Shown here in pieces: positions 14,001 through 22,011 of a DNA stretch of 64,000 nucleotides (positions are counted from its first letter, which is position 1; the number at the start of each line of letters is the position of its first letter). The stretch is taken from the NCBI RefSeq assembly GCF_000017505.1, contig NC_009675.1:3667001-3731000 (forward strand), written 5' to 3'. This stretch comes from Anaeromyxobacter sp. Fw109-5 (GTDB lineage Bacteria > Myxococcota > Myxococcia > Myxococcales > Anaeromyxobacteraceae). The notes under the pieces were generated by a model. That model was not told the DNA's origin and ran no database searches. It worked only from the letters and a program-made list of their open reading frames with translations. A program made the position numbers and the translations under genes.

Positions 14001-15806
14001 ATGCTCGGGATCGATCCCGTCGCTTACGTCAGGTCGCTCCCGCCGTTCGACGCGCTCCCGAAGGCGCTCTTCGACGCGGTGGCGCCGACCATCGACGTGA
14101 GCTTCGATCCCGCCGGGGCCCGCCTCGTGTATCCCGGGGGCGAGCCGCTGCGCCACCTGTACGTCATCCGCAAGGGCTCGGTGAAGCTGCTGCGCGAGGG
14201 CCGGGCCCTGCAGCTGCTCGAGGAAGGGGAGGTCTTCGGCTACACCTCGCTCCTCCGGCACGAGGCGATGCTCGACGTCGTGGTGGAGGAGGACCTCGTC
14301 GCGTACCGGCTGCCCGAGCGAAGCTTCGCGCTGCTGCTCTCGGACGCGCGCTTCGCCCGGCACTTCGCGGCGCGGGCCGCGGAGCGCCTGCAGGCGAGCC
14401 TCTCGGGCGGCGAGGTCGCGAGCTACCGGCCGGATCTCGCGGTCGAGGTCGGGCAGATCGCGGTCCGGGCGCCCGTGTGGGTCACGCCCGACGCCCGGGC
14501 GGGCGAGGCGGCGCGGACGATGCGAAGGGAGCGGATCTCGTCCGTCCTCGTGCGAGGCGATCCGCCCGGGATCCTCACGGATCGCGACCTGCGCGGCCGC
14601 GTGCTCGCGGAGGGGCTCGGGCCCGGGACGCCCGTGGACCGGATCTGCACGAGGCCGCTCGGCACGATGCCGGCGACGACTCCGGTCTACGCGGCCTGGA
14701 CGTATCTGCTGGACAAGGGCGTGCACCACCTCCCGATCACGCGCGACGGGGAGATCGTCGCCGTGATCACCTCGACCGATCTCATGCGGCACACGACCCC
14801 CGGACCGATCACGGTCCTGCGGCGCGTCGAGTGGCTCCCGTCGCGCGAGCACCTGCCCGGCTACGCGGGCAGGCTGGCGGAGATGGCCTCCTCGCTCCTG
14901 GCGAGCGGCCTCGACGCCGTCGCCATCGGGGGGTTCGTGGCGCGGCTCAACGAGGTGCTCCTGCGACGGATTCTCCAGTGGACGGAGGCCGATCAGGGCG
15001 CGCCCCCCGCGCCGTACGCCTGGATCGTGTTCGGGTCCGAGGGGCGGATGGAGCAGACGCTGCTCACGGATCAGGACAACGGGCTCGTCTACGCCGACGC
15101 GGGCGCCGGGAGGCGCGAGTGGTTCCGATCCTTCGCGGAGCGTGTCAACGCCGACCTGATGGCGGCGGGTTTCCCGGAGTGCCCCGGCCGCTACATGGCG
15201 CGCTGGTGGCATGGCCCGCTGTCGGAGTGGGAGGAGCGGTTTCGCGGCTGGATCGACGTGCCCGATCCGAAGGCGCTCCTCGTCGCGTCCATCTTCTTCG
15301 ATTTCCGCCGGGCCGGCGGCGCGCTCGAGCTCGCGCCGCTCGACGCGATCCTCGCCGAGGCGAGGAGGAAGATCGTGTTCCTTCGCCTGCTCGCGAGCGC
15401 GTCGATGGAGCACCACCCTCCCGAGCGGCTCCTGCTCCGCGTCCGCGGCGACGCGTCGACCGTCGATCTCAAGACGCAGGGTCTGTCGCCCGTCGTCCTC
15501 CTCGCCCGCTGCTACGGGCTCGAGGCCGGCACGCGCGCGCGGAGCACCCTCGAGCGCCTCGAGGCCGCGGCGCGGGCCGGGCTCCTCGCCGAGGACGAGC
15601 GCGCGACGGTGGCGGGGGCCTTCCGCTTCGTGCTCGGGCTCCGCCTCCGGCGTGAGCTCGAGGCCCAGACCCGGGGCACGCCCGCGACGACGAGGCTGTC
15701 GCTCGGCCAGCTCAGCGCGATCGAGCGGACGCGGCTCAAGGAGGCGTTCCGCGACATCGAGCGCTGGCACGACGCGGCGAGGCACCACTACCACGTCGAG
15801 TCCTAG
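14001..15806 (+). CDS. cNMP-binding/CBS/DUF294 nucleotidyltransferase-like regulator, copy 2
   Basis: The 601-residue protein is a full-length tandem paralogue of the gene 9 bases upstream, with the same domain order. The NTase motif is G-S-E-G-R-M-E-Q-T-L-L-T-D-Q-D-N (345-360). The strongest shared stretches are Y-V-I-R-K-G and G-E-V-F-G-Y-T-S-L in the cNMP domain and the R-A-R-S-T-L-E-R-L-E block near the C-terminus. Both copies keep catalytic Asp residues, so neither looks dead. They could form a heterodimer or answer different ligands. This is the last gene of the operon and converges on the BON-domain gene 23 bases away. Confidence 0.9.
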   Translation: MLGIDPVAYVRSLPPFDALPKALFDAVAPTIDVSFDPAGARLVYPGGEPLRHLYVIRKGSVKLLREGRALQLLEEGEVFGYTSLLRHEAMLDVVVEEDLVAYRLPERSFALLLSDARFARHFAARAAERLQASLSGGEVASYRPDLAVEVGQIAVRAPVWVTPDARAGEAARTMRRERISSVLVRGDPPGILTDRDLRGRVLAEGLGPGTPVDRICTRPLGTMPATTPVYAAWTYLLDKGVHHLPITRDGEIVAVITSTDLMRHTTPGPITVLRRVEWLPSREHLPGYAGRLAEMASSLLASGLDAVAIGGFVARLNEVLLRRILQWTEADQGAPPAPYAWIVFGSEGRMEQTLLTDQDNGLVYADAGAGRREWFRSFAERVNADLMAAGFPECPGRYMARWWHGPLSEWEERFRGWIDVPDPKALLVASIFFDFRRAGGALELAPLDAILAEARRKIVFLRLLASASMEHHPPERLLLRVRGDASTVDLKTQGLSPVVLLARCYGLEAGTRARSTLERLEAAARAGLLAEDERATVAGAFRFVLGLRLRRELEAQTRGTPATTRLSLGQLSAIERTRLKEAFRDIERWHDAARHHYHVES

Positions 15807-15829
15807 CCGCGCGCCACCGCTGCGCGAGC

Positions 15830-16354
15830 TCAGTGGGTCGACCGCCCCGGCCCCGTCTCCTGGCCGGGCGCGTCGGTGCGCGCGACGCGCAGGTGATCGT
15901 GTACGTCCTCGACGCCGAACACGCCCTCCACCAGCTCCTCGAGCCACCACTTCTCGCGGCGGCTGCGCACGGTCCCGGTGAGCGTCACCTCGCCGTTCTC
16001 GACCTTCACCTCCACGTCGCTCGCGTCGACCGGGCTGCGGGCGATCCGCTCGCACACGGCGTCCTGGATGCGGTCGTCGGCGCGCCTGTAGCCCTTCGGA
16101 CCGTGCGGGCGTTTTCCGGTCGCCTCACGCGCCCGCTCTCCCATCCACGCGAGGGGGCCGCGATCTTCCCACTCGATGAGCCCGCGGGTGTCGGCGTCCG
16201 CGCTCCGTGCGTACGGGCCGCGCTCCACCCACGGCGGGTCGAGCTCCTCGCGCTCGCGCCAGCGCCCCGCCCGCGCCTCGCCGTACCCACGTTCCCCTGC
16301 CGCTCGCTCCCGCTCGTCCCAGCGTGGATCCTCCCAACCTCCGTAGCGTGTCAT
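15830..16354 (-). CDS. BON-domain protein
   Basis: The 174-residue protein has no signal peptide. The first 95 residues are rich in Arg, Glu, Gly and Trp and look disordered. A BON domain follows at about 97-158, with the pattern V-E-V-K-V-E-N-G-E-V-T-L-T-G-T-V near 120. BON domains bind membranes or phospholipid, and relatives such as OsmY respond to osmotic and envelope stress. A cytoplasmic version with a charged head is common in myxobacteria-like genomes, but its function is not known. It is divergent from the hemerythrin gene. Confidence 0.85.
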   Translation of the reverse strand: MTRYGGWEDPRWDERERAAGERGYGEARAGRWREREELDPPWVERGPYARSADADTRGLIEWEDRGPLAWMGERAREATGKRPHGPKGYRRADDRIQDAVCERIARSPVDASDVEVKVENGEVTLTGTVRSRREKWWLEELVEGVFGVEDVHDHLRVARTDAPGQETGPGRSTH

Positions 16355-16654
16355 GGCTCGGCCTCCCGTCCGCGGCGCCGGCGCCGGAGACCCGGCGCCG
16401 GGCGCCACTCGGAAAAGGTACGCACCGACCCGCCGGTCACGTGGGCCGCCCGGACGCCGCAAGCCTGGCGCCGGGCACCGATATGGCGTTGCTCGTTCAA
16501 CGGGGGCTGGGTGCCGCCTCGCCCGCCCGGCCGGAAGAGGCCGGAAAGGTCGACCCGTCACCGTTGGCCGGCTCCTTGCTGTGATCCGGGGGCGAACGGG
16601 CGCCGCCGGAAGTCTCCGGCGCATCCCCCTCCCCTTCCCTCGACCGGAGCGACC
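16355..16654. promoter_or_regulatory. Divergent intergenic region, BON gene / hemerythrin gene
   Basis: This 300-base region lies between divergent starts. I see no conserved operator or convincing promoter pair. The bases just before 16655 (GACCGGAGCGACC) provide the ribosome binding site of the plus-strand gene. Confidence 0.35.
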
Positions 16655-17605
16655 ATGAGCCAGACCTGGCGCGAGTTGCTGATGACCGACCACGAGACCA
16701 CCGAGCGCGTCTTCTCGGCGGCCGAGAAGGCCCTCGCGGCGCCAGAAGGCCCGTCGCCGGGGATGGTCGCGAACCTGCGCGAGTACCTCGTCGGCTACGT
16801 CGATCGCTGCCACAACCAGAAGGAGGAGCAGACCGTGTTCCCGCTGCTGCAGCGCGCCGGCCTGCCGGTCGAGGGCGGCCCGCTCGCGGTGATGCTGGCG
16901 GAGCACCGGCAGGCCAAGGCGCTCGTCGAGCGGATCGACGGCGCCGCCGCGGCCTTCGTGGCCGGGGACCGAGCGCGGCTGGACGACCTGCGCGACGCCT
17001 TCGGCGCGTACGCGGCGCTCTGCAAGGATCACTTCTGGAAGGAGAACGACATCCTCTACCCGCTCGCGGCGCGCATGCTCGACGAGGCGACGCAGGCCGG
17101 CATCGTCCCGGGCATCGAGGCGGTGGAGGCCGCGCTCGGGCCCGACACCCGCCGGCGCTACTACCGGATCGCGGACGAGCTCGTGCGGGCGGTGGAGCTC
17201 GAGGACCTCTCCTACGGCCTCGACCGCCAGGTGCTCGCCGCGATCCTCAACACGCTGCCGGTGGAGCTGTCCTTCGTGGACGAGGAGGACCGGGTCCGCT
17301 ACTTCAGTCACGAGCGCGGCGAGAAGATCTTCCCGCGAAGCCGCGGCGCCATCGCGACCAACGTCCGCAACTGCCACCCGCAGAAGAGCGTCCACCTCGT
17401 GGAGAAGATCCTGGCGGACTTCAAGGCGGGCCGCCGCGAGGTGGCCGAGTTCTGGATCGACATGGGCCCGCGCAAGGTCCACATCCGCTACTGGCCGGTG
17501 CGCGACGAGGCCGGCCGCTATCTCGGCTGCCTCGAGACGGTGCAGGACGTCTCCGGCATCCAGCGGCTGACCGGGCAGCGCAGGCTGCTCGAAGAGGCGG
17601 CCTGA
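16655..17605 (+). CDS. Hemerythrin-like/PAS sensor protein (DUF438-type)
   Basis: The 316-residue protein has a hemerythrin-like four-helix domain (about 1-150) with H14, H52 and E56 in the H-N-Q-K-E-E segment, the E-H-R-Q-A segment, and a final K-D-H-F-W-K-E-N-D. These are the expected di-iron ligands. A PAS domain follows (about 195-305), beginning I-L-N-T-L-P-V-E-L-S-F-V-D. This arrangement is seen in DUF438 proteins, thought to sense O2, NO or redox state through the di-iron centre and pass it on through PAS. No output domain is attached, so it probably works through a partner. Confidence 0.88.
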   Translation: MSQTWRELLMTDHETTERVFSAAEKALAAPEGPSPGMVANLREYLVGYVDRCHNQKEEQTVFPLLQRAGLPVEGGPLAVMLAEHRQAKALVERIDGAAAAFVAGDRARLDDLRDAFGAYAALCKDHFWKENDILYPLAARMLDEATQAGIVPGIEAVEAALGPDTRRRYYRIADELVRAVELEDLSYGLDRQVLAAILNTLPVELSFVDEEDRVRYFSHERGEKIFPRSRGAIATNVRNCHPQKSVHLVEKILADFKAGRREVAEFWIDMGPRKVHIRYWPVRDEAGRYLGCLETVQDVSGIQRLTGQRRLLEEAA

Positions 17606-17748
17606 GCGGAGGCCGAGGCCGCCGCGGCCCGTAACCGATCCGCCGGCTCATCCGTGTCTCAGGGCGGAGGGACCTGGAGCCGAAGGTCCCTCCGGCCGTG
17701 CCGAGGTCCTCGAGCGGCACGGCGTCCACCCGACGACCGGAGAAGACG

Positions 17749-18222
17749 ATGACGAGACGCATCGACCTCGAGCACGTGGCGCCCGGCGCGGCGCGCGCGA
17801 TGCTCACGCTCGAGCAGTACGTGCGCGGTTCGGGCCTGGAGCACGAGCTCCTCGAGCTCGTGAAGCTCCGCGCCTCCTACCTGAATGGCTGCGCCTACTG
17901 CGTGGACATGCACACGAAGGACGCCCGCGCCCGCGGCGAGTCGGAGCAGCGGCTGTATGCGATCCCGGTGTGGCGCGAGACGCCGTTCTACACCGTCCGC
18001 GAACGCGCCGCGCTCTCGTGGACGGAGGCGGTGACGGAGCTCGGAAGGACCGGCGTGCCCGACGCGGTGTTCGACGACGTCCGGCGCCACTTCTCCGACG
18101 CCGAGCTCGTGAACCTGACGATGGCGGTGATCGCCATCAACGCGTGGAACCGCCTCGCCGTGAGCTTCCGCAAGGAGCCGGGGACCTACCAGCCGCGCGC
18201 GGCCGCGGCGGCGGCAGGCTGA
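17749..18222 (+). CDS. AhpD-like/carboxymuconolactone decarboxylase family protein
   Basis: The 157-residue protein starts at an ATG after GGAGAAGAC. It contains the AhpD redox signature C-A-Y-C-V-D-M-H (C48, C51, H55) with the preceding acidic helix. This is the peroxidatic and proton-relay centre of alkylhydroperoxidase-like proteins. Such stand-alone members act as small peroxidases or disulphide reductants; the substrate is unknown. It follows the hemerythrin-PAS gene, so both may answer oxidative or nitrosative stress. Confidence 0.9.
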   Translation: MTRRIDLEHVAPGAARAMLTLEQYVRGSGLEHELLELVKLRASYLNGCAYCVDMHTKDARARGESEQRLYAIPVWRETPFYTVRERAALSWTEAVTELGRTGVPDAVFDDVRRHFSDAELVNLTMAVIAINAWNRLAVSFRKEPGTYQPRAAAAAAG

Positions 18223-18359
18223 CGCGCCCGGGGATCACGGCCGCGCCTGGAACGAGGAGCTGTCAGATCGAGGCGCTCCTCCGGTCCACCTCTGCGAGGC
18301 CGATGCGGTCGGCGCTGGGCTGGCTCGCACCCGGCCTGCTCACGAACGAGGAGATCCCC

Positions 18360-18530
18360 ATGGGTAAGCGAAGCGAGAAGACCACTCGACCTGCGGCGCC
18401 GAAGGCGCTCGGCACCGAGGAGCTCGGGAAGGTTTCCGGAGGGAGCCTGCACCCCGTCTTCCCCCCCGGCCAGTTCCCTTCGCCGGAGAAGCCCGGCTGG
18501 CACCCGGGCCACGACGAGGGCAAGCCCTAG
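18360..18530 (+). CDS. Small peptide precursor with double-glycine leader
   Basis: The 56-residue peptide starts at an ATG preceded by GAGGAG. The first 28 residues are a Lys/Arg-rich leader ending in E-E-L-G-K-V-S-G-G, the classic bacteriocin-type double-glycine signal (G27-G28) cut by C39-peptidase ABC exporters. The predicted mature part is 28 residues, has six or more Pro, two His-Pro pairs and no Cys, and ends in D-E-G-K-P. Without Cys or obvious Ser/Thr clusters it is not a typical lanthipeptide. No exporter, immunity or modification gene lies nearby. It may be a signalling peptide or orphan bacteriocin. Function is not established. Confidence 0.65.
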   Translation: MGKRSEKTTRPAAPKALGTEELGKVSGGSLHPVFPPGQFPSPEKPGWHPGHDEGKP

Positions 18531-18691
18531 CAGGGCGTCTCCGGACCCGCGACGCGCGGCCGCGCTCGTGACGTGATGCCACGTGACGGGCGGGCGGCGC
18601 GGCGCGGGTCGGGAGGTCACTCTCCGTAAGGCCCACCACCTCCGCCGAGGCGGCTCAAGTTTCGTTCGAGGTGGGCACGAGGGAGGGAGCC

Positions 18692-19021
18692 GTGACGGTA
18701 CGCGAACGTTGCCTCTCGCTGCTGGGCGCCGTGCTGCTGGCAGGCACGCTCGCCTGTCCGGAGCGTCCGGGTCAGCCGCGAACAGGCGAGGTAGGACGCC
18801 AGGGGAGCACCGCGGCGAAGGCGGAGGAACGGCCGGACGACCCGGGCCGCGCCAGCCGGGACGGACCCTCGACTCCCGGCGGGACGGGCTCGGCCTCGCC
18901 GAGCGGCCCGCCCAGCTCGGTGGGGACCACGGGCGACTCGCGCAGCGTCGGGACGACGGGCGACACCGGTGCGCCGGGCGGGACCGACACGGCGCCGGAG
19001 AAGTCGGGCACGTCGCGCTGA
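18692..19021 (+). CDS. Small low-complexity exported protein, possible lipoprotein
   Basis: The 109-residue product starts at a GTG after GAGGGAGGGAGCC. A hydrophobic signal (L-S-L-L-G-A-V-L-L-A-G) ends in T-L-A-C, an imperfect lipobox. The remainder is Pro/Gly/Thr/Ser/Asp-rich and contains the near-repeat S-V-G-T-T-G-D twice, so it is probably disordered and surface exposed. No family is recognisable. It ends convergently with the barrel gene at 19182. Confidence 0.6.
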   Translation: MTVRERCLSLLGAVLLAGTLACPERPGQPRTGEVGRQGSTAAKAEERPDDPGRASRDGPSTPGGTGSASPSGPPSSVGTTGDSRSVGTTGDTGAPGGTDTAPEKSGTSR

Positions 19022-19181
19022 CCGCGGTCGCACCGACGTGGACGAGACTCCTGCGCCGCGGCCGACGTACGGTCAGCCGGCTTCAGCAACGCCGCAGAGC
19101 TTGCCGGGGAAGACCACTCGCAGCCGCGCGGCAGCCGAGCCGCGCTTGCGTGACCTCGAGATCGTCACCAGGCCGATCCGG

Positions 19182-19832
19182 CTACAGGTCGAGAGTGGCG
19201 CGGATTCCGAGCTGGAGCCAGCCGTGGAGGGTCTCGCTGGCGATCTCGCCGTCCAGCGAGCCGCCCTCGGACTTCACCTGCACCCGCTCGAACCGGCCGA
19301 TCGAGGCGGAAGCGTACGGCCCGAGGCGGCCTCGCCCGAGCCGGACCACGTCGGCGCCGAGCTGCACGTTGAGCCACTCCCAGCCGCGGTACGTGACCGT
19401 GCCCGAGCCGCTCGGGTCTCGAGCGGAGTACGAGAGCGCTTCGTAGGCCGTCCCCACGGCCCCCCAGGTCGTCACCCGGCCCGAGCCGTCGAACAGCCAG
19501 AAGAGCTGGGCGCCCGCCCGGAGGACCCGGGCGTCCTCGCAGCGGGAGCCGGTGTCGGCGCAGGCGCCCGAGCCGAGCGGCGCGCTCGACGAGAGGGCGC
19601 CGGGAGCGTACTGGAGGAACGGGCCGACGCTCAGGCGAGGCGAGACGCCGAAGGTCAGCTCGGCGGTGATCGGCAGCGCGAAGCGGAGCTCGTCCGAGAG
19701 CGCGGCGGCAGAGGCGGTGCGGCCGTAGGGGACGCCGCCTCCCGCGCGGAGGCTCAGCGTGATGTCCGAACGCGCGCGCGCTGCGCCCGCCGGGACGGCG
19801 AGCGCGGCGGCGAGGAGGACCAGGGTGCGCAT
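19182..19832 (-). CDS. Outer-membrane beta-barrel-like protein
   Basis: The 216-residue protein has a signal peptide (MRTLVLLAAALAVPAGAARA). It is followed by alternating hydrophobic/polar strands with many Gly and aromatic residues and a terminal strand I-R-A-T-L-D-L. Two Cys around residue 100 (G-A-C-A-D and S-R-C-E-D) may form a loop disulphide. It starts 2 bases after the stop of the large FN3-like lipoprotein, so the two are translated together and may form a surface complex. I cannot assign a transport or assembly role. Confidence 0.75.
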   Translation of the reverse strand: MRTLVLLAAALAVPAGAARARSDITLSLRAGGGVPYGRTASAAALSDELRFALPITAELTFGVSPRLSVGPFLQYAPGALSSSAPLGSGACADTGSRCEDARVLRAGAQLFWLFDGSGRVTTWGAVGTAYEALSYSARDPSGSGTVTYRGWEWLNVQLGADVVRLGRGRLGPYASASIGRFERVQVKSEGGSLDGEIASETLHGWLQLGIRATLDL

Positions 19833-19834
19833 GC

Positions 19835-21826
19835 TCACGGCTCCTCGTAGAGGACGTGGGGGAGGCGGTCGGGGTCTGCGTACGCCGTCGAGCGGCCGAT
19901 CCCCATGAGGACCCACAGCTTGCCCGCGGGCGTGAAGCCGAGCGCGAACTCCCCCTCCACCGCGGCGAGGGGGCGGACCGTCCAGCCGCCGGCGTCCCGG
20001 ATCGCGACCCGCGGCGGGCTGCTCGTCGTGGCGATCGCGATCCGCGTCCCGTCCGGCGAGCTGGCCGCCCGGTAGGCGGGCCAGCTGTCCGTCGCCGCGA
20101 GCGCGGGCTCCGCGGCGGACCAGCTCGACCCCTCCCGCACGCTCACCCCGATGACCGCCGTTCCGCTCGTGTCGCTCCAGCGCCCGACCAGCACCACGCG
20201 GTCGACCGCGGGGAGCAGCACGGGGCCCCAGGCGGCCCCGGACGTCCCGGCCGTCGGGAGGGGCTCATCGGACCAGCCCCCGCTGCCGTGACGCAGGAGG
20301 AGCGTCGAGGCGCCCTGCATCAGGAACGCGGGCTCGTTCGCCGGATCCGTCGCGATGCGGCTCGTGGCGTAGGCGGTGTCCCAGGGCGCCGTGAAGACCT
20401 CCTCGGTCCAGGCGCCCTCGCGCCGGACGGCGTACGTCATGGGCAGGCTCGCGCCGAGGGCGGTGCAGCAGTCCTGCCAGAGCAGGTGCGGATCACCTCC
20501 CGCGTCGAGCGCGCTGGAGGAGGCCCCGGCGCCCAGGGCGAGGATCGTCCCGGCGCGCTCGTCCCGCCAACCTGCCGAGTCCTGCCAGCGATGGCGGACG
20601 TCCCAGTGTCGTGCGTCGGTCTCCTGCTCGTACAGAACGTGAAGCCGTCCCTGCGCGTCGAAGTGGACGCCGGGGCGCGCGGCCCGCACGCGGTCCGCGG
20701 TCGCGGGGAACCAGCGCTCCCAGCCGTCCGGCGTGGGCACGTGGACGGCGAGCGTGCTCCAGCCGTCGCCGGACACCACCGCGAACGCGCCCGACGGCGC
20801 GCGCGCGACCTCGTCCGCCTCGGGCAGCTCGATCACCGAGGCCTCGAGGACTCCCGCGAGCGCGGGATCGGGCACCAGCACCGACGCCGAGGCCGGCGTC
20901 GAGAGGAGGTCCCAGTCGTACCAGCTCGCGTCCGGGCTCTTCGCCTGGACGACGTACGTGTAGAATCCGGGCGGGGGCGCCGGCATCTCGAACGAGGTCG
21001 CGGGCGGGTCTGCCACCCCGAGCTCGACCTCGGCTGCGCCCAGCGGGCGCCGGGTCACCCTCACCTGGATCGGGGCCGCTCCGGCGTACGTCCAGCCGAC
21101 GCGAACGACTCCGGCGTCGTGGACGGCGGTTGCGGCCAGGGCGAGCGGCCGCCCACCCGGGCTGCGCGCCTCGACGGGCTCGCTCTCGACGTCGCCCGCC
21201 AGGTACACGATGCGATAGGCGAGGCGCGCGCCGTCGCGCCACTGCGCCGTGTCGGCGTCGTCGTACCTCGTGGTCGCGGCGCTCGCGAGGAGGACCTGCT
21301 GCCAGGGGGAGGCCGGCCCCGTGGCCGGCTCGATGCGCCGCTCCACCCTCACGGCGGTGGCGCCCTGGGAGGTCCTCTGCCACCACACCGACACGGGCCC
21401 GGCGACGCTCCATCCGACCTGCGCGTTCGCGGCGGCCGCAACCGGGAGCTGGACGGCGGCCTGGTTCGTGGGAGTGGAGCGGACGCCGTTGTCCACGGCG
21501 ACCGCGCGGAACGTGAGCCGTGCGCCGTCCTCGACCTGGGACAGCGCGAGCGTGCCGGCCGTGGCGCTGCCGCCGAACCAGTACCCCTGCGTCCAGGGCC
21601 CCTCCCCCGTGCGCATCTCGAGGACGATGCCGTCGGGGACGGCGCCCGGAGGGCGCGACCACTCGGCCTGGAGCTCCGGCCACCCCCACGCGGAGGACGA
21701 GAGCGCGACGCGCAGGTCCGATGGCGGGGCCGGGGCGGGCGGTCCTTCGACGTCGAACCCGCTGCAGCCGCACACCAGGATCGCCGCGGCCAGGGCGGCG
21801 GGTCGGCTCACGGAAGGAAGGCTCAC
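19835..21826 (-). CDS. Large lipoprotein with FN3-like domains and a repeat region
   Basis: The 663-residue protein starts at a GTG with AGGGGG upstream. The signal peptide ends in I-L-V-C-G-C, giving a lipid-anchored Cys. Three fibronectin-III-like segments follow (about 35-125, 125-225 and 225-320), each with W and Y-R-I/F-R-A strand signatures. The second half (about 330-660) has recurring G-W-x and G-x-L-H-V-L strands, suggesting a beta-propeller of six or so blades. This is a surface-exposed binding protein by appearance. No catalytic motif is visible. The barrel protein follows directly. Confidence 0.75.
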   Translation of the reverse strand: MSLPSVSRPAALAAAILVCGCSGFDVEGPPAPAPPSDLRVALSSSAWGWPELQAEWSRPPGAVPDGIVLEMRTGEGPWTQGYWFGGSATAGTLALSQVEDGARLTFRAVAVDNGVRSTPTNQAAVQLPVAAAANAQVGWSVAGPVSVWWQRTSQGATAVRVERRIEPATGPASPWQQVLLASAATTRYDDADTAQWRDGARLAYRIVYLAGDVESEPVEARSPGGRPLALAATAVHDAGVVRVGWTYAGAAPIQVRVTRRPLGAAEVELGVADPPATSFEMPAPPPGFYTYVVQAKSPDASWYDWDLLSTPASASVLVPDPALAGVLEASVIELPEADEVARAPSGAFAVVSGDGWSTLAVHVPTPDGWERWFPATADRVRAARPGVHFDAQGRLHVLYEQETDARHWDVRHRWQDSAGWRDERAGTILALGAGASSSALDAGGDPHLLWQDCCTALGASLPMTYAVRREGAWTEEVFTAPWDTAYATSRIATDPANEPAFLMQGASTLLLRHGSGGWSDEPLPTAGTSGAAWGPVLLPAVDRVVLVGRWSDTSGTAVIGVSVREGSSWSAAEPALAATDSWPAYRAASSPDGTRIAIATTSSPPRVAIRDAGGWTVRPLAAVEGEFALGFTPAGKLWVLMGIGRSTAYADPDRLPHVLYEEP

Positions 21827-22011
21827 CGAATCCCCCTGGGAGAGAGCGCGCAGGACAGCACGTACCGTCGGAGGAGTCGATGACCGCGCGCAAGATCGCG
21901 CACGCGAGGCGCGAGCCGCGGCGCCTCGCGCGACGGCGCGTGCCTCGGCGACTTCGAAGGCGACGGCGCCGACTGCCACGACACCGCGGTCGCGTCCGGG
22001 GGCGCGACGGG

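Follow-up and report, generated by a model that had tools for sequence, protein, structure and literature searches.

A double-glycine peptide precursor of Anaeromyxobacter sp. Fw109-5 with a predicted promoter shared with a remote C39 exporter

The window analysed here, a stretch of 64,000 nucleotides from the soil bacterium Anaeromyxobacter sp. Fw109-5, contains a small gene for a probable secreted-peptide precursor; the gene would be co-regulated with a remote C39 exporter and its product served by that exporter in trans. The probability assigned to this reading is roughly 78%. The open reading frame (ORF) with its leader and core, a homologue, the single exporter of the genome, a shared motif, the co-occurrence of these elements, and sigma factor orthologues beside the exporters were computed here. 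In the proposed mechanism, the ECF-type promoters of the peptide gene and of the distant export locus would be read together, and the ECF sigma factor of that locus is the likeliest one to read them. The C39 domain of the genome's single C39-ABC exporter would recognize the double-glycine (GG) leader and cleave it after Gly28, and the 28-residue Pro/His-rich core would exit via HlyD and the TolC-like channel to act outside the cell as a signal or bacteriocin. The gene in the window would be one among several dispersed cargo genes of the exporter. The promoter step is supported by the sequence, and translation, cleavage, export, and extracellular activity would most likely proceed as in the family. 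The features concerned are collected in Table 1.

Table 1. Features of the peptide gene, the exporter locus, and related loci (positions without a prefix are those of the window)
Feature	Position	Strand	Description
Predicted ECF-type promoter TGTCAG, 16-nt spacer, GGTC	18261..18286	+	Motif also before exporter operon and adjacent peptides
Ribosome-binding site GAGGAG	18348..18353	+	Seen in the sequence, six bases before ATG
Double-glycine peptide precursor gene	18360..18530	+	56 aa plus stop; ORF and translation
Leader, 28 aa, MGKRSEKTTRPAAPKALGTEELGKVSGG	18360..18443	+	Likeness to exporter-adjacent leaders, ALGDEELGAVSGA type
Core, 28 aa, Pro/His-rich, no Cys, SLHPVFPPGQFPSPEKPGWHPGHDEGKP	18444..18527	+	Motif common with the G008 homologue
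ECF-type sigma factor gene, 242 aa	L016:10194-10919	minus	Beside exporter-locus peptide genes
Q/N-repeat cores	L016:11054-12407; L021:10043-10255; L022:11195-12905; L150:1-1615		Exporter-adjacent
HlyD gene	L016:12672-14180		Exporter locus
C39-ABC gene	L016:14177-16330		Exporter locus
Second ABC gene	L016:16326-18335		N-terminal region without catalytic Cys, by eye
TolC-like gene	L016:18377-19723	minus	Exporter locus
44-aa peptide loci	L048 (G000, about C1:3257.2 kb); L163 (G022:C112)		No GG leader

The translation contains the elements described in the original prediction, namely a leader ending in EELGKVSGG and a 28-residue, Cys-free, Pro-rich core with two His-Pro pairs. The core comprises 8 Pro and two Ser. 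The leader has the GG or GA ending, preceded by a hydrophobic/acidic pattern, of C39-processed peptides and follows the pattern of the exporter-adjacent leaders. An alternative in-frame ATG lies upstream at 18303 with a poorer ribosome-binding site (GCGAGG only), and a start there would fall about 17 nt past the predicted -10 element. The window peptide has no match up to E=10 in NCBIfam and Pfam, and this includes leaders of the nitrile hydratase or Nif11 type (NHLP/Nif11 model). A scan around the ORF for a sigma-70 promoter and an intrinsic terminator found neither. Just upstream of the peptide gene is a CMD (AhpD-like) gene at 17749-18222 (Pfam PF02627). It was considered as a co-regulated target of the ECF41 type and rejected, as no GTCAG-type site is present within roughly 190 nt before it.

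Spurious frames are abundant in GC-rich DNA, and a chance open frame was considered as an alternative. A rule combining a ribosome-binding site, an ATG or GTG ORF of 40-110 aa, and a GG-leader motif was applied to the two strands of the 64-kb window and yields one ORF, the 18360-18530 gene; other loci, which lack the exporter and total 143,895 bp, contribute one further ORF. The stricter leader pattern LG[DTSN][DEA][DEALV]L..V[SA]G[GA] has a single occurrence in the window, all frames considered, and none on one strand of 3 Mb of simulated sequence. The leader rule, a homologue found at E=4.8e-9 per genome, and the first rank of the promoter site within the window already contradict a chance origin, the probability of which is negligible.

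The homologue in G008 is 58 aa long, with 61% identity in the aligned part and 56% over the full alignment, and retains the leader, core, and promoter. The core residues common to both peptides are S.HPV[FY]P..PPGQFP..E..GW.PG. Loss of the frame and leader in relatives had been named as evidence against the peptide; frame, leader, and core recur in G008, which bears the exporter. A homologue is present in 2/145 order-level genomes, G000 (the genome of the window) and G008, and is missing from G003 despite the exporter there. When 35 kb of the window around the gene were compared with 19 kb around the homologue by blastn at 1e-5, no match was found. The pair differs at codon positions 1, 2, and 3 by 13, 18, and 19 changes, with the third position not favoured, and dN/dS over 55 codons is about 0.6 (NG86) or 0.2 (ML). 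With these codon-position differences and the discordant dN/dS, the data resolve selection on this pair only poorly. The narrow distribution and the weak evidence of selection would both suit a decaying relic, or a precursor that is no longer exported and carries a vestigial leader. Such a relic is very improbable, as the promoter, leader, and core motif are retained in both species at unrelated loci.

Several other matches were rejected. The only two matches in a GTDB scan, both in Parafrankia, are frames without a GG leader, likely antisense to another gene that is presumably a transposase, and are ascribed to chance. The order-level matches in G009, G028, and G084 lie within long frames and have no properly placed start and leader, and these too are ascribed to chance. 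Weak tblastn matches within the genus (L004-L010 and L012-L015) contain no small GG-leader ORF by regular expression; L010, L013, and L014 were also inspected by eye.

The genome consists of one contig of 5,277,990 bp, in which the window is C1:3667001-3731000. It contains one C39 match, at C1:3654210-3654596 (E 2.9e-34). The exporter locus lies upstream, before the start of the window, and from the end of the C39 exporter gene it is about 29 kb to the peptide ORF, whose first base is C1:3685360. The original prediction described the peptide as an orphan with no exporter or modification gene nearby, possibly processed by a transporter encoded elsewhere. The ORFs overlapping window positions 15000-22000 bear out the lack of such genes close by, but the C39 exporter about 29 kb upstream, outside the window, provides a partner in the same genome. 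Both searches that had been proposed, for a C39-peptidase ABC exporter and for additional small genes carrying this leader, gave positive results, with one exporter and three small genes beside it. The single C39 exporter, the leader, the homologue, and the promoter all support a transporter encoded elsewhere as the likely processor.

The C39-peptidase ABC exporter that a C39-processed peptide should have in the same cell is present as one match, and its alignment with the solved PCAT 4ry2 is nearly full-length (query residues 6-707). The C39-ABC protein has the motif TECGAAS, seen by eye, which is presumably the catalytic Cys motif of the family. Among NCBIfam models, HlyD and the two ABC proteins come closest to those for type I secretion and NHLM, with all scores below cut-off: 684 bits against 853.3 for TIGR03796 (C39-ABC), 240.3 against 709.4 for TIGR03797 (second ABC), and 91.7 against 156.2 for TIGR03794 (HlyD). 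C39 is present in three of the nine genus genomes (G000, G003, and G008), and G022, from another genus, has the exporter at 80% identity. The locus is conserved in G008 and G003 and comprises a kinase, TPR, Tll0287-HAMP, sigma factor, peptides, HlyD, two ABC proteins, and TolC. The Anaeromyxobacter sp. Fw109-5 exporter was previously listed as a LanT homologue with an HlyD neighbour and no described cluster, according to an excerpt of PMC3951391.

The core could also be modified post-translationally by an enzyme encoded elsewhere, which would make the product a RiPP. A conserved core and remote genetics are shared with the prochlorosins, as these are described in parts of PMC10783134. This alternative is nevertheless rather improbable. 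The core has only two Ser and no Cys, and so lacks the combination of Cys with Ser or Thr of lanthipeptide cores, and no modification enzyme is evident among the genes of the conserved exporter locus.

The three small genes that adjoin the exporter have leaders ending in LGDEELGAVSGA (two genes) or LGDDELSAVSGA. A leader profile built from seven exporter-adjacent leaders, with the window peptide left out, ranks the window ORF as the top non-training match in its own genome at E=0.165, with the runner-up at 1.69. The exporter-less genomes, too, contain weak matches, at E 0.086 and above. Leader evidence by itself is therefore suggestive and not decisive. When the window peptide is part of the profile, which makes the profile circular for that peptide, matches at E<0.1 are confined to G000, G003, and G008, and G004 has one match at E=1.45. 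Judged by leader pattern, convincing candidate GG peptides with this type of leader are confined to the three C39-bearing genomes among the nine genus genomes. The exporter-adjacent cores have common Q/N-spaced repeats (TQTQSE, GDQSQSASQ, TQVNV), unlike the window core. Four exporter-adjacent peptides have only sub-cut-off matches in Pfam.

The predicted promoter connects the peptide gene with the exporter locus. Its site is 99 nt upstream of the peptide ORF, and the motif GTCAG-VTY-N13-V-GTC is common to the exporter operon and its peptides. Fourteen GG-peptide genes in G000, G003, and G008 are preceded by GTCAG, [ACG]T[CT], and then [N]GTC 16 nt after GTCAG; the G003o3 site deviates, with ATC in place of GTC. 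Twelve of these sites lie 99-126 nt from the ATG, and two lie at -52 and -33. In all four exporter-bearing genomes (G000, G003, G008, and G022), a separate site lies 44-45 nt before the start of the exporter operon. A matrix derived from 11 sites at exporter loci, which belong to peptide genes and exporter operons and all lie outside the window, gives the site at 18261 a score of 21.3 bits, the best on both window strands, with a runner-up at 12.3; no site equalling 21.3 bits was found in a 2-Mb simulation. Peptide gene and exporter seem to be switched on together via the same kind of promoter. This shared predicted promoter is an independent link between the two, beyond what the first reading of the sequence had observed.

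Genome-wide, the motif has 15 sites in G000, 16 in G003, 8 in G008, and 14 in G022, and the reversed pattern has 1, 1, 1, and 3, respectively. The six exporter-less congeners, among them G007 with a completeness of 66%, have 18 sites in total and three of the reversed pattern. When one rule is applied to all 71 sites, a GG-leader gene follows 5/15 sites in G000, 7/16 in G003, 2/8 in G008, and 3/14 in G022. This amounts to 17/53 in the four exporter-bearing genomes against 0/18 in the six exporter-less ones (Fisher p=0.003), with a leader pattern fixed when the positives were already known, and with counts that are not independent, since the compared genomes are related. G022 was left out of the pattern definition; it has three GG peptides after sites, one of them on a separate contig, which may simply be a broken-off end of the exporter locus. 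In G000, 9/15 motif sites precede neither a GG peptide nor the exporter.

The sigma factor of the locus scores 55.3 bits with TIGR02937 (cut-off 42.9) and matches Sigma70_r2 in Pfam. ECF control is known for some lantibiotics. It is unlikely, though the gene and its export would be as proposed, that the motif is read by a paralogous ECF sigma factor or bound by another regulator. Paralogues with 40-58% identity are present in 8/9 genus genomes, its own included, so the locus sigma factor is not proven to be the cognate one. Some sites precede lipoprotein-like or other secreted-protein genes, which implies that the regulon may be wider. Against a different regulator, the closest orthologues (81% in G008 and 74% in G003) sit at the exporter locus, and motif sites are fewer in exporter-less genomes (1-7 per genome) than in exporter-bearing ones (8-16). 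The best sigma matches in the exporter-less genomes are at 40-50% in five of the six and at 28% in G004. Reading by the locus sigma factor is still taken as most likely. ECF41 was rejected as the regulator. According to PMC3426412, ECF41 promoters resemble the present ones in their -35/-10 layout, 16-nt spacer, and CGTC-like -10. However, their -35 is TGTCACA in place of the GTCAG[ACG]T[CT] found here, and the locus sigma factor has no Pfam match to the C-terminal extension of the ECF41 type.

Other small genes accompany the motif or the leader. A remote 60-aa gene of G000 at 1.75 Mb (C1:1751.5 kb), MLRKNEKKALCAMSEEDLASVNGAIDKS..., was found by its promoter alone. The promoter scan of G003 found GG-leader genes at 3.21, 4.39, and 4.79 Mb, and a leader search there added three more: those at 5.29 and 5.40 Mb have a motif or near-motif site near the start, and the third, at 5.41 Mb, has none. 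One GG-leader peptide of G003 (L036 / L076, about C1:4787 kb) has the core ..ISITKVVDKASAKLFTACASGSHIKEATLVL, which we take to be lanthipeptide-core-like; its gene is about 20 kb from the G003 exporter and has the promoter motif. A conserved 44-aa peptide (MDADFDADLEQLETGHCT... / MDANFDADLEQLENGHCT...) follows the same motif in two genera. Two paralogous lipoprotein-like genes, L057 and L058 (G000, about C1:4269.0 and 4281.0 kb), lie 34 nt after near-identical sites, and the regulon may thus include surface proteins.

Anaeromyxobacteraceae may have, with somewhat better than even odds, a dispersed regulon of GG peptides under one locus ECF sigma factor, with a single HlyD/tandem-ABC/TolC exporter that serves all of them in trans, and including a new Cys-free, Pro/His-rich extracellular family that is mobile with its own promoter. 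Gene callers and cluster-based mining easily overlook small GG-peptide genes that lie at a distance from their exporter. A promoter that ties such genes to the exporter would allow a simple listing of the full cargo of one exporter. If the regulon reading is true, promoter scanning predicts remote cargo missed by homology searches, such as the 60-aa gene of G000. In the literature searched, no dispersed regulon of GG peptides with ECF-type control is reported for Myxococcota.

Class II microcins are short GG-leader peptides that use a C39-ABC protein, HlyD, and TolC in Gram-negative bacteria, and the present system is alike in its short GG leader, its C39-ABC, HlyD, and TolC components, and its Gram-negative host. 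Reading of the ORFs around the peptide gene recognized no immunity gene; immunity proteins are short and diverse. The NHLP/NHLM systems (TIGR03794, TIGR03796, and TIGR03797) also have HlyD and two ABC proteins, one with C39, but the exporter subunits here are all below the curated cut-offs. GG peptides and PCAT exporters are already known, and so is remote cargo, in pneumococcus (PMC7595303) and among prochlorosins (PMC10783134). The pneumococcal ComAB/BlpAB peptides, such as BriC, are alike in their GG or GA leader and C39-ABC exporter, and in having cargo genes remote from the exporter, a common regulator, and use in trans, as far as the excerpt of PMC7595303 describes them. In contrast, the present system belongs to a Gram-negative myxobacterium, has HlyD and TolC, a different Pro/His core, and an ECF-type promoter in place of ComE. 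Prochlorosins, according to PMC10783134, are lanthipeptides with leaders of the Nif11 type and one LanM, and resemble the present peptides in precursor genes scattered over the genome, a common leader, and diverse cores. The window peptide differs: it is Cys-free and its GG leader is short, no modification enzyme was seen, and the link is a shared promoter.
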